Of a stretch of DNA of 64,000 nucleotides, positions 19,252 to 24,093 are shown piece by piece. The notes below the pieces were generated by a model. That model made no database searches. It was not told the origin of the DNA and worked only from the letters and a program-made list of their open reading frames with translations. The first letter of the stretch is position 1. Each line of letters opens with the position of its first letter. This DNA is from Dehalobacter restrictus DSM 9455 (lineage in GTDB: Bacteria; Bacillota; Desulfitobacteriia; Desulfitobacteriales; Syntrophobotulaceae): the NCBI RefSeq assembly GCF_000512895.1, contig NZ_CP007033.1, positions 1,227,001-1,291,000 on the forward strand, given 5' to 3'. The translations under genes were made by a program, and so were the position numbers.

Positions 19252-20505
19252 ATGAACGAAGTTTCTACCATTCGAGATATTAGGCTGGCTGCTGACGGAC
19301 AACGAAAAATAGACTGGGTAAAACAGTACATGCCGGTGTTGAATTCACTTCGGGATCAATATATTCAAGAGCGCCCGTTTGCAGGGAAAAAAATTGTCAT
19401 CTGCCTTCATTTGGAAGCAAAAACCGCATATCTGGCCTTGACAATTCAGGCGGGAGGCGGGGAAGTTGCTGTGGTCGCCAGCAATCCGCTCTCTACGCAG
19501 GATGATGTGGTAGCGGCTCTGGTCGAAAACGGCATCAGGGCTCATGCCTGGCACGGTGCGACAGATGAGGAGTATAAAGTGCATATCAATAAGGCCCTCG
19601 ATTTTGGGCCTGATTATATCATTGATGACGGTGGGGATCTCGTTTCAACAATTCATACTTGCCGGCGGGAACTGATTGGCCAGGTTAGAGGTGGAGCGGA
19701 GGAGACCACAACAGGTATTCTCAGATTAAAAGCCATGTCCAGGGAAGGAAAGCTTGAATTTCCGATGATGGCCGTCAATGATGCCAGAAGCAAGTATTTA
19801 TTTGACAACCGATACGGAACGGGTCAATCCGTCTGGGATGCAATTCTGCGGACAACCAATCTGGTCGTTGCAGGAAAAACGGTTTGTATCGTTGGTTATG
19901 GATGGTGCGGAAAAGGTGTGGCATTAAGAGCCAGAGGGCTTGGGGCGAAAATCATTATCTGTGAAGTTGACCCGGTTAAAGCCAATGAGGCCTGGATGGA
20001 TGGATACGAGGTCATGCCGATGAAGGAAGCCGCTTCTATGGCAGATTACTTTATTACCGTGACTGGCAATAAAAATGTCATTACAAAAGATCATTTTGCA
20101 CGGATGAAGAATGGTGCAATCCTGGCGAACGCCGGTCATTTTGATGTGGAAATCTCTAAGCAGGACCTGAGTCTTCTGGCTGTTTCCAAAAGAAAGGTCC
20201 GCCCCAACACTGAAGAATTTACCCTTGAAGACGGGAGAAAAATCTTCTTGCTTGCTGAAGGCAGACTGGTGAATTTAGCTGCAGGAGACGGTCACCCGGT
20301 GGAAGTAATGGATATGTCTTTTGCGTTGCAGGCTTTGGCCCTCGAATATCTGGTAAAAAACCAGGGGCTTGAGAACAAAGTTTTTAATGTTCCGGAACAA
20401 CTGGATAACAGGGTTGCGCTGATGAAGCTTCATTCACTTGGACTGCAAATTGACAGCCTGACATCGGATCAGGCGGAATACCTAGCAGGATGGGTAAATG
20501 AATAA
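19252..20505 (+). CDS. ahcY: Adenosylhomocysteinase
   Basis: Hydrolyses S-adenosylhomocysteine to adenosine and homocysteine, relieving product inhibition of methyltransferases. The NAD-binding motif GYGWCGKGVALRARGLGA stands near residues 218-235; DDGGDLVSTIH, TGILRLKAM and NDARSKYLFDNRYGTGQS are the conserved substrate and NAD contacts. At 417 residues it is the short form seen in archaea and many anaerobes rather than the longer form with an insertion. GGAGGAGGTG precedes the ATG, so translation should be strong. Its stop overlaps the start of acuA by eight bases, which implies coupled expression. Confidence 0.95.
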   Translation: MNEVSTIRDIRLAADGQRKIDWVKQYMPVLNSLRDQYIQERPFAGKKIVICLHLEAKTAYLALTIQAGGGEVAVVASNPLSTQDDVVAALVENGIRAHAWHGATDEEYKVHINKALDFGPDYIIDDGGDLVSTIHTCRRELIGQVRGGAEETTTGILRLKAMSREGKLEFPMMAVNDARSKYLFDNRYGTGQSVWDAILRTTNLVVAGKTVCIVGYGWCGKGVALRARGLGAKIIICEVDPVKANEAWMDGYEVMPMKEAASMADYFITVTGNKNVITKDHFARMKNGAILANAGHFDVEISKQDLSLLAVSKRKVRPNTEEFTLEDGRKIFLLAEGRLVNLAAGDGHPVEVMDMSFALQALALEYLVKNQGLENKVFNVPEQLDNRVALMKLHSLGLQIDSLTSDQAEYLAGWVNE

Positions 20506-21124
20506 AGAGGAATGGATCAACATTACCTGTACTATCCAGACTTCGAAAGGGGAACTGCTGATATCCGGGGTGACATCTCCGGATATCTTGGAAAAGCTTG
20601 AAATTGACCAGCAATTAAAAGCTTTCCGTCCGGCTGCCAAACAAAAAAAAGCCATTGTTGAGATCAGCTGTCTTCCACAGGGAAAAGTCGTCTCAGCCCA
20701 AATCAATGGGGAGCTGGTCGGCTATATTACGTTTCATCCGCCGGATGAATTTGAACGGTGGTCATCCGGACAAGACAAGGTTCTGGAGCTCGGAGCGATT
20801 GAAGTGTCTCCTCGCTACCGCAATTATGGAGTAGCCCGCAGGATGCTGGAAGCTGCTTTCGGTGACGAAAAAATGGAAGACTATATTGTGATTGCAACAG
20901 AATATTACTGGCACTGGGATTTGGATGGAACAAACCTGCCGATTTGGGAATACAGGGAAATGATGCGCCGTCTGATGACGCATACGGATCTGCTTATTAA
21001 AGATACGGACGATGAGGAAATCACATCTCATCCAGCCAATATGCTGATGGTTCGCTATGGGAAAAATATCACAAAAAAAATGATACATAATTTTGATCGA
21101 CTTTTATTTTTAAACGGCAAATAA
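20498..21124 (+). CDS. acuA: Protein acetyltransferase AcuA
   Basis: GNAT-fold protein of 208 residues closely resembling Bacillus AcuA. Shared landmarks are VEISCLPQGKV, GYITFHPPDEFERWS, ELGAIEVSPRYRNYGVARRML (acetyl-CoA site, residues about 98-118), IVIATEYYWHWDLDGT and ITSHPANMLM. AcuA acetylates the active-site lysine of AcsA and shuts down acetate activation. Here it is coupled to ahcY rather than to acuB/acuC, and no deacetylase is in the window. The target acsA at 12.9 kb keeps its lysine motif. The downstream flank carries only a weak hairpin before the unusual RNA region. Confidence 0.9.
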   Translation: MNKEEWINITCTIQTSKGELLISGVTSPDILEKLEIDQQLKAFRPAAKQKKAIVEISCLPQGKVVSAQINGELVGYITFHPPDEFERWSSGQDKVLELGAIEVSPRYRNYGVARRMLEAAFGDEKMEDYIVIATEYYWHWDLDGTNLPIWEYREMMRRLMTHTDLLIKDTDDEEITSHPANMLMVRYGKNITKKMIHNFDRLLFLNGK

Positions 21125-21265: not shown

Positions 21266-21294
21266 TTGCAAAAAATACGGATTATGTATAAAAT
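21266..21294 (+). promoter_or_regulatory. Candidate promoter of the large RNA
   Basis: TTGCAA (21266-21271), 17 bases, TAAAAT (21289-21294). It overlaps the first copy of a 25-bp tandem repeat. Weaker than the consensus, but the only promoter-like match just upstream of the structured region. Confidence 0.35.
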
Positions 21295-21332
21295 GATATG
21301 GAAGCTATATGTATAAAATGATGTGGAAGCTA
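21283..21332. repeat. Two tandem 25-bp repeats
   Basis: Copies at 21283-21307 and 21308-21332 differ at one base (TGATATGG versus TGATGTGG). Each contains TATGTATAAAATGAT, so a -10-like sequence is duplicated. They lie about 70 bases before the start of the structured RNA region. Confidence 0.85.
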
Positions 21333-21399
21333 ATAAAAATGAACTAGTGAAAACTAATTATATCTTAGTTTCAGATGTGTAAGGTTCCTTTGGATCATG

Positions 21400-22010
21400 G
21401 AGCGTTATTCTAGTGCATGAAACGGTCATTCGAGGGCGGGCCTAAGAATCCGCTAAGGGCATACCGATGAAGTTCCTGGTGGTGGCTTGGGACGCCCAGT
21501 CGTGGGCTGCTGCTGGGAGTTAAGGACAGAGGGGGATCCGCAATGGCATGTGGGCGCTACCCTTTATCCGTGGAGGCCCAGGTACGTGGTTTGAAACATA
21601 GCTACGGCTTGGGGATGAACCTGCATTAGGAAGGAACTTAGTGCAGTGTAGCCTGCCTTGAGGTGGAAAAGTTGGAAAGGCGATGATTGGTTAACTGGTG
21701 TTGGCAAACATCCGTTATACCTGCCGGAAATTCTTTTCTGCAAAAGAGGCTAGGGTGACCGGGAGTGTTAAGGAAAACTTCTAGAGCGTTTTATTGAGAA
21801 GGATTGAAGTGCGGACTAAGTGGCGATCAAGTTCTGAGAAATGGCAACATTTCAGACCAGGAGGAAGGGGAAACCGCCCTTGCAGGAAACCAAAGGGATC
21901 CTGGTGGGAAAACCTACTTGACCTAAGCCGCAACATTTACTTCTCGATATCCTACAATCCAAGGGACTACCATCAAAAGTGGTATGTAAGATAAGGTTCT
22001 GTATTGTAGG
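21400..22010 (+). ncRNA. Candidate large structured RNA, family undetermined
   Basis: About 610 bases, G-rich and full of purine-rich GAAA/GGAA segments, with no credible gene on either strand. Visible helices on the plus strand: GCCCA 21494/TGGGC 21503; TGGGC 21551/GCCCA 21576; GCTAC 21601/GTAGC 21648 enclosing CTGCATTAG 21621/CTTAGTGCAG 21637; GCGG 21811/CCGC 21928 and TCAAGT 21827/ACTTGA 21916 enclosing GAAATG 21838/CATTTC 21848 (GCAA tetraloop) and CCAGGA 21857/TCCTGG 21899 with AAGGG/CCCTT inside; last CCTACAAT 21951/ATTGTAGG 22003 with TACCA/TGGTA. The length is near that of OLE RNA, known from anaerobic Firmicutes, but no OapA-like gene is adjacent and I cannot confirm its conserved sequence. 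A degenerate group II intron is another option, although no domain V or reverse transcriptase was found. Confidence 0.6.
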
Positions 22011-22013
22011 GAT

Positions 22014-22115
22014 AACCCCCTAAATAAGAGTAACTCCAAACCTATAAGATGCTGTTAATAGTTTTATACTGTTGGCAGTATCTTTTTGTAAATTTAGGGG
22101 TTTATATCGTGTCCC
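22014..22115. repeat. Nested palindromic element, copy 2
   Basis: CCCCTAAAT (22017-22025) pairs with ATTTAGGGG (22092-22100), and an inner AGATGCTG (about 22047-22054) pairs with CAGTATCT (about 22076-22083). The right end TGTAAATTTAGGGGTTTAT closely resembles TGTAATTTTAGGGGTTATT of the element at 15.8 kb. It directly follows the last helix of the candidate RNA and could be its 3' end. Confidence 0.5.
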
Positions 22116-22198
22116 CAACCGCTTTTCGGCTATTGACCATTCATGGAGCTTTAAATAAATATTTAGTAATAAAAATATTTTGAAAAACAAAATTTTTC

Positions 22199-22227
22199 TT
22201 GAGTAAAATGTTTTATAATAGTATAAT
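22199..22227 (+). promoter_or_regulatory. Sigma-A promoter for the HD-GYP gene
   Basis: TTGAGT (22199-22204), exactly 17 bases, TATAAT (22222-22227). Transcription from about 22234 leaves a 5' leader of roughly 170 bases in which I see no clear ribosome site at a canonical start. Confidence 0.7.
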
Positions 22228-22404
22228 TAAGAACAAATAAGAATTTTTTAAATTTAAAATGACGATCATTTGGTAGCCGATTTACACTTCTTCTAAAATT
22301 ATAAAACTTCTTTTAGAAAGTGAGTAAGCATTTTTGCATACACATTTGGCTGTTGAAAAAGGAATTTAATAAATTCATTAAAAAACAGACTCATATATGA
22401 ACAA

Positions 22405-23981
22405 TTGCTAAATAAAGTTTCTCTTATTACTCTTGAAGATAGTGATATAGACGATTGCATAAATAAAAGTCTTCAAGTTCTTGGAGAAACTCTATTAGTT
22501 AGTCGAGCCTATTTATTAGAACCTTATCAAGAAACAAATATAAATAATAATTTTGTATGGGTTTCGCCCGGTATCGTGCACGAAAAAAATAATCTTCATG
22601 ATATGTCGGAATGTTTTACACCTTGGTTACTAAATCAAGTGGAAAATAATAAAATAATATGTTTTTCAGACATTGAAGATATTCCCGATGAGATGACAAA
22701 AAAATAATACTTAACCAAAGGATAAAATCTCTTTTTATTATCCCGTTATTTGTTAAAAATATATACTACGGTTGTTTAGGTTTTGATGTATGGGGAAATT
22801 ATCGTGAATGGCTGGAAGTTGATGTTAACTTTCTCCAGTCTATTGCTAGAATTCTTTGTTCAACTATTGCAAATGATATGGCGAAAAAAAGCATGAATTT
22901 CGAACGTATTCAATACTGTACTATGTTTGATAGCATCAATGCGGGAATTTACGTTTCGGATATAGAAAACTACAAAATACTTTATGCAAATAAATTTATT
23001 AAAGATATTTATGGTAGAGAACCGATAGGAGAGTTATGCTATAAGGTCTTGCATAATAAAGATTATCCATGTATTTTTTGTACAAATCAAATTATAAAAG
23101 AAACCAAGGACAAACCATATATCTGGGAACATTATAATACTTTTGTAAATAAATATTTTGAAATTACCAATAAGATAATCCGTTGGAGGGACGGCAGGGA
23201 TGTTCGCTTTGAATATATGTGTGAAATGTCAAAGTATAAGCAAGTGCAAACGGAATTATTAATGGAAAAGGAAGCAATTAAGTCATTGGAAGCAAAACTA
23301 AAAAAAACCAATGAGAAATTACAAATCCTTTCACAATCTACAATTACAGCATTGAGTGAACTGTTAGAACAAAAGGACTCATATACGGCTTCTCATCAAA
23401 CAAATGTTGCTAATTTGTCTTGTGCTATAGCCAAAGAAATGAAATTACCGGAGGAACAAATTAAAGGAATAAAAGTAGCTGCACTACTACATGATATTGG
23501 AAAGATAGCTATACCTTTAGATATACTTAATAAACCTCGTAATTTAACAGATAATGAATTCAATTTAATCAAAGAGCATGTTCAGAATGGTTTTGAAGTT
23601 ATTAAGACCTTAGACTTTTCCTGGCCAATTGCTAAAATAATTTTACAGCATCATGAAAGAATGAATGGCTCTGGGTACCCAAATGGTTTACGAAATAATG
23701 AAATACTTATAGAAGCAAAGATATTAGCTGTTGCGGATACGATAGATGCGATGTCTTCTCATAGACCTTATAGACCTGCCCGTGGTTTAGGAGAAGCAAT
23801 GGCTGAAGTATTAAAACATAGTAATGTTTTATATGATAGTGAGGTAGTCAAAGCTTGTTTGTCAGTACTTATGAAAGAAAATAAAAAAAATAAAGTTATA
23901 ACTCAAAAAAATTTTCAATATGCCTCTAACCATAGCGAAATTAATAAAATAAATAAAAATATCGTATGTTATAATATCTAA
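22405..23981 (+). CDS. GAF-PAS-HD-GYP protein, split by a -1 frameshift
   Basis: Likely cyclic-di-GMP phosphodiesterase sensor. The first frame (22405-22707) encodes the first half of a GAF-like domain and stops at TAA 22705. Reading -1 at A-AAA-AAA (22698-22704) continues with ILNQRIKSLFIIPLFVKNIYYGCLGFDVWG, the rest of the GAF domain, and runs through a PAS domain (FDSINAGIYVSDIENYKILYANKF), a short coiled coil and an HD-GYP domain with HDIGK, HHERMNGSGYP and ADTIDAMSSHRPYRP to 23981. The open second frame alone begins at ATG 22878. No good start exists: TTG 22405 lacks a ribosome site and the frame is open back to 22357, so the 5' end may also be lost. GC is clearly lower than in the neighbours. 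Confidence 0.75.
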
Positions 23982-24041
23982 GAACTTAGACCTCAAGAAG
24001 ATATGTTATTGGACGAAAAAATTCCTCATATTTGACACAGA

Positions 24042-24093
24042 GCTAAAAAAGGAGTTTTGCTGGGCTGCTGTTACAGCATTCCTGCAAAACTCC
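24042..24093 (-). terminator. Terminator of the M23-bactofilin unit
   Basis: GGAGTTTTGC (24051-24060) pairs perfectly with GCAAAACTCC (24084-24093); on the minus strand it is followed by T6 (complement of 24045-24050). An inner GCTG/CAGC stem closes the loop. Confidence 0.75.

Follow-up and report, generated by a model that had tools for sequence, protein, structure and literature searches.

Based on a cmscan search with Rfam 15 we discovered that the 64-kb window, which is the whole stretch of DNA analysed, contains a complete member of a known RNA class, OLE, that is ordinary for its family. With a probability of about 0.93, this is a functional ole gene that was moved once, as a unit, from the order ispA-yuiD-ole-oapA-dxs to the intergenic region between mrp-ahcY-acuA and uvrC in an ancestor of Dehalobacter. 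OLE RNA (RF01071) was the sole gathering-threshold match in the window, at 21381-21969 on the + strand (589 nt), with 408.3 bits against a gathering threshold of 50, an E value of 1.8e-116 and model positions 1-616 of 616 covered. The initial annotation had put OLE forward as its leading guess, which this end-to-end match bore out, and of the models it had listed for an Rfam search (OLE, HEARO, ROOL, GOLLD, group II) OLE alone matched. Its limits for the element, 21400-22010, need a small shift to those of the family match, which a terminal stem may extend slightly.

The same annotation had considered a new RNA class as an alternative, for which the full-length RF01071 match gives no support. 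A new large structured class, ROOL, GOLLD, HEARO/omega RNA and group II introns were all rejected as candidates, since only the OLE model matches, and we regard them as extremely improbable. The likeness is one of size and helix density only, the named classes also being large, densely structured bacterial RNAs, whereas the window RNA matches none of their models. Among 4227 Rfam families the full-length OLE match refutes them, and a permissive scan of 21300-22150 (851 bases) against these families gave nothing but OLE up to E = 1. Additionally, no reverse transcriptase or HNH gene was recognised in the neighbouring ORFs, which speaks against a group II intron or HEARO.

The proposal that the + strand is non-coding and highly structured was confirmed by stops, folding energy and projected pairs. 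Each + frame of the stretch has 6-11 stops, with no open run longer than 61 codons; a decayed protein gene was ruled out by stops in all six frames together with the covarying helices. The folding energy was -215.4 kcal/mol in comparison to -190.85 +/- 6.5 kcal/mol for 100 dinucleotide shuffles (z = -3.78), none of which folded as low. When the Rfam base pairs were projected onto the window sequence, 128 of the 146 were formed; the Rfam OLE model was made by others and its seed may contain relatives of the Dehalobacter genome. Alignment of the window RNA with 29 relatives (30 OLE sequences) showed a standard pair in 87.5% of cells, compared to 38-49% with the partners slid by 1-3 columns. Both sides had changed at 69/146 pairs against 42.3 +/- 2.9 in shuffles, and doubly changed cells numbered 353 against 122 +/- 10 (0/500 shuffles as high). 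The covariation check suggested earlier therefore gave strong support for the Rfam structure.

The helices named in the initial annotation are among the best supported of the OLE pairs. UGCGG/CCGCA (21810-21814/21928-21932) and UCAAGU/ACUUGA (21827-21832/21916-21921) are both real, each being 99% paired across the alignment, with three and two doubly changed pairs, respectively. Its GNRA hairpin was likewise recovered: the GCAA loop at 21844-21847 varies between GCAA, GCGA, GUGA and GUAA and is always GNRA. The strands flanking the long hairpin in the 5' part of the RNA (Table 1) are invariant in the 30 sequences. They correspond to the region at which OapC is bound at a k-turn in H. halodurans OLE (PMC9723947), and may by analogy be the same binding region here. 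A stem joining both OLE ends is suggested to be real, as duplexes calculated for 5' and 3' ends from one genome average -19.1 kcal/mol, compared to -14.1 kcal/mol when the two ends come from different genomes.

In solved structures the dimer bridge B3 is formed by the GGCC palindrome of L9.3 (PMC12286853). The L9.3 loop (window 21700-21708; alignment columns 341-349) is GGCA in almost every sequence of family f1, with GGCC in L019, and GGCC is retained by all f2 and f3 relatives aligned. The GGCA of the window RNA weighs against a functional ole.

Table 1. Features of the OLE RNA gene and its immediate surroundings (positions in the window).
Feature	Position	Strand	Evidence or remark
OLE RNA gene (ole)	21381..21969	+	Full-length RF01071 match; covariation in 30 relatives
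Probable terminal stem, 5' arm	21383..21395	+	Absent from Rfam structure; UUCCUUUGGAU pairs with AUCCAAGGGA
Probable terminal stem, 3' arm	21957..21967 (approximate limits)	+	Pairing with 5' arm
Long hairpin, 20 model pairs	21473..21519	+	19/20 pairs formed
P9.3-equivalent hairpin	21689..21720	+	Loop GGCA where family consensus is the palindrome GGCC
3' multibranched domain with GNRA hairpin and P13-like arm (21856-21905)	21793..21948	+	Projected pairs, covariation
acuA-like GNAT acetyltransferase, upstream neighbour	20498..21124	+	Pfam Acetyltransf_1; synteny
Intrinsic-terminator-like hairpin, 17-pair stem then UUUUU	22046..22090	+	RNAfold -22.3 kcal/mol for 22040-22100

The RNA is conserved beyond its neighbours. 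It is 90.3% identical to that of the more distant congener G003, compared to 68-77% for the neighbouring coding genes (ahcY, acuA, bactofilin, M23 peptidase, dxs, yuiD and ispA), and 99.8% identical to the RNA of G001, with no decay visible. Judged by these identities, selection at the new site keeps the RNA and not a protein.

We searched for the partner gene with the OapA of a relative (L003) that has the classic order ispA, yuiD, ole, oapA, dxs. The Dehalobacter genome (G000), which is one contig (C1) of 2,943,336 bases, encodes an OapA homologue at G000:C1:1312603-1313124, with ole at 1248.4 kb. The initial annotation was thus correct that OapA is not adjacent, oapA lying about 64 kb downstream, and at that distance an OLE without its partner altogether was ruled out. 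The setting of oapA is xseA-xseB-ispA-yuiD-oapA-dxs, which is the classic operon without ole; the genes beyond dxs, as read from translations, appear to include tlyA, nadK, argR and recN. The gap between yuiD and oapA is about 90 nt, in comparison to about 720 nt in relatives in which ole and oapA are linked.

OLE and OapA co-occur almost completely in the class. Each was found in 44 of 83 genomes: both were present in 42 and both absent in 37, and one alone was found in 4 (Fisher p ~1e-18, phylogeny ignored; a weak OapA hit in G052 that overlaps a CNNM/MpfA match was counted as absent). The two genomes with OLE and no OapA match, G030 and G073, are both incomplete. An OapA without a detectable OLE match was seen in G012 and G013, one of which is 95% complete, and either an assembly gap or true RNA loss may account for this. 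In G072 (78% complete) two OLE matches were found (C349:1577-2154 and C486:7283-7870, 439 and 416 bits), so that either the RNA is duplicated or the assembly is a mixture.

Within the class, ole immediately precedes oapA in five f3/f4 genomes (G026, G028, G080-G082) and not in f1 or f2. A scan of named genomes gave 80 oapA loci, of which 58 have OLE just upstream (Syntrophomonas, Thermosyntropha, Desulfotomaculum, Pelotomaculum and others; a few of these 58 are cut by contig ends) and 22 have none beside oapA. These 22 are the closest loci among the 80 and come from the clade of the Dehalobacter relatives (Gracilibacter, Ca. Dichloromethanomonas, Desulfosporosinus, Paradesulfitobacterium, Acididesulfobacillus and relatives). 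The f3/f4 genomes, the Syntrophomonadaceae and Desulfotomaculum with its relatives have the same RNA family and the same partner protein as Dehalobacter, and in them ole is the gene just before oapA within the ispA-dxs operon.

In Dehalobacter ole has been relocated and sits between the mrp-ahcY-acuA cluster and uvrC. Apart from local losses, the neighbours are shared across f1 and f2: upstream lie pepF, mrp, ahcY and acuA, and downstream bactofilin, M23 peptidase and uvrC, which are convergent. The simplest reading of this shared synteny is that ole was relocated a single time, probably in the common ancestor of f1 and f2. That the gene moved more than once, or that the arrangement in the operon is derived, seems improbable to us. 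In favour of several moves, a gene adjoins OLE in many f2 genomes and not in f1; from its translation it is probably DUF711. This gene lies between acuA and OLE and looks like a later insertion, and acuA, uvrC and the bactofilin/M23 synteny are common to both families; the operon site, in turn, was seen in every sampled lineage outside the clade, which argues against it being derived. A single ancestral relocation is thus the reading we keep. It was previously reported that oapA is the most common immediate neighbour of ole (PMC12265935), and the wording 'most common' implies that exceptions to the adjacency were already known. The part of the OLE literature covered contained no description of a relocation, or of OLE together with Dehalobacter, Desulfosporosinus or Desulfitobacterium. 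The RNA class itself is known, and we did not find the clade-wide relocation of ole described.

The surroundings of the new site vary between congeners. The terminator-like hairpin downstream of ole (Table 1) was not flagged by a consensus terminator scan, and it falls in a segment common only to G004 among the congeners compared. A scan for sigma-70 promoters gave sites no more numerous than in shuffles. Directly after OLE, a 2-kb A+T-rich segment (~21990-24044; 30% G+C in comparison to 44.5% for the window) carries an HD-GYP gene; G000 and G004 have it, whereas the corresponding site lacks it in G001 and G002, and it is either a recent insertion or a lineage-specific loss. The HD-GYP gene (22405-23981) has a single base deleted in an A run at ~22702, which divides it in two, in comparison to G004, where the frame is continuous; it may be a pseudogene or reflect a sequencing error. 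In the spacer before OLE (~21277-21330) a unit of about 25 bases (TATGTATAAAATGATRTGGAAGCTA) is directly repeated almost perfectly, and one copy is apparently missing in G004.

In this assembly the oapA gene of the Dehalobacter strain is broken in frame by two single-T deletions in comparison to G001, G002 and G004, the first of which leads to an immediate stop, and a working OapA is therefore not assured. The deletions, together with the observation that in comparison to G001 no other clear frame-breaking indel was noticed in the shared genes of both neighbourhoods, would fit an OLE complex that is being lost in this strain, with the oapA frame gone and the RNA left as a recent, undecayed orphan. 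We consider this rather unlikely: the RNA is nearly identical to that of G001, the remainder of oapA encodes a protein of 96% identity with no further interruption of the frame, and the two deletions, some 10 bases from one another, fall in runs of T, where sequencing errors typically occur, so that an error and true decay are equally likely. The site L062:6640-6660 (G000:C1 about 1312645) has the sequence GCU UUU UAA G. If the tRNA that reads UUU slipped by +1 at this point, translation would continue in the downstream frame with one codon fewer; an error, decay or frameshifting may each account for the site. It is more doubtful still, and in our view quite improbable, that a free-standing OLE is under strong selection although oapA is untranslatable in one frame, and works without an ordinary OapA. 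If true, this would contradict the view of the two as inseparable.

Of the other protein partners, the gene for OapC (YbxF) is intact (82 aa, PF01248 49 bits) and lies between rpoC and rpsL. OapC and OapB are encoded in about 45% and about 60% of OLE species, respectively (PMC11332333). With a generic KOW model, which is not a true OapB query, only NusG and RplX scored in Dehalobacter. Nothing was found either between map and infA, which we take to be the expected site of the OapB gene. A KOW hit in one relative was ruled out as OapB, as it sits in a transporter operon. The genes for CNNM/MpfA are anticorrelated with OLE (PMC11332333). Our counts in f1 and f2 match this, with an average of 0.82 copies in genomes with OLE in comparison to 1.64 in those without it, although these genomes are related and the p-values ignore phylogeny; the Dehalobacter genome has one copy.

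In comparison to the OLE of Halalkalibacterium halodurans and Clostridium, the Dehalobacter RNA shares the full-length model match, the covarying secondary structure, the GNRA loop and the conserved joining strands, and an OapA homologue and OapC/YbxF are likewise encoded in the genome. It differs from a typical OLE in lying 64 kb from oapA and not directly upstream of it, in the terminator-like hairpin that follows it, in the GGCA of its L9.3 loop in place of GGCC, and in that OapB was not found with the generic KOW model. It is also shorter and scores lower, with ~589 nt and 408 bits versus ~612 nt and 520 bits in linked relatives.

OLE RNA is known to form a dimer, to be carried to the membrane by OapA and to have YbxF bound at a k-turn, and the OLE RNP has been implicated in helping cells to tolerate Mg2+, alcohol, cold and poor carbon sources (PMC11332333, PMC12265935, PMC9723947, PMC12286853). 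By analogy with the family, the Dehalobacter ole transcript would fold into a large, dimer-forming RNA, which OapA would hold at the membrane and which would bind YbxF/OapC at a k-turn, and the RNP may act in tolerance of the same stresses. The ole gene of H. halodurans is co-transcribed with its operon (PMC12265935), and with the gene relocated here another promoter would therefore have to drive it. The relocation would uncouple the dosage of OLE from the transcription of oapA and the isoprenoid genes, and the RNA and its protein partner would therefore assemble in trans.

The gene neighbourhood of OLE (oapA, ispA, dxs) is a main clue to its biochemical function. This clade separates two clues that the neighbourhood holds together: the tie to OapA survives and that to the isoprenoid operon does not. 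The clade is thus a natural test of which neighbours of ole matter, and it offers organisms in which the dosage of the RNA and that of the protein are uncoupled.
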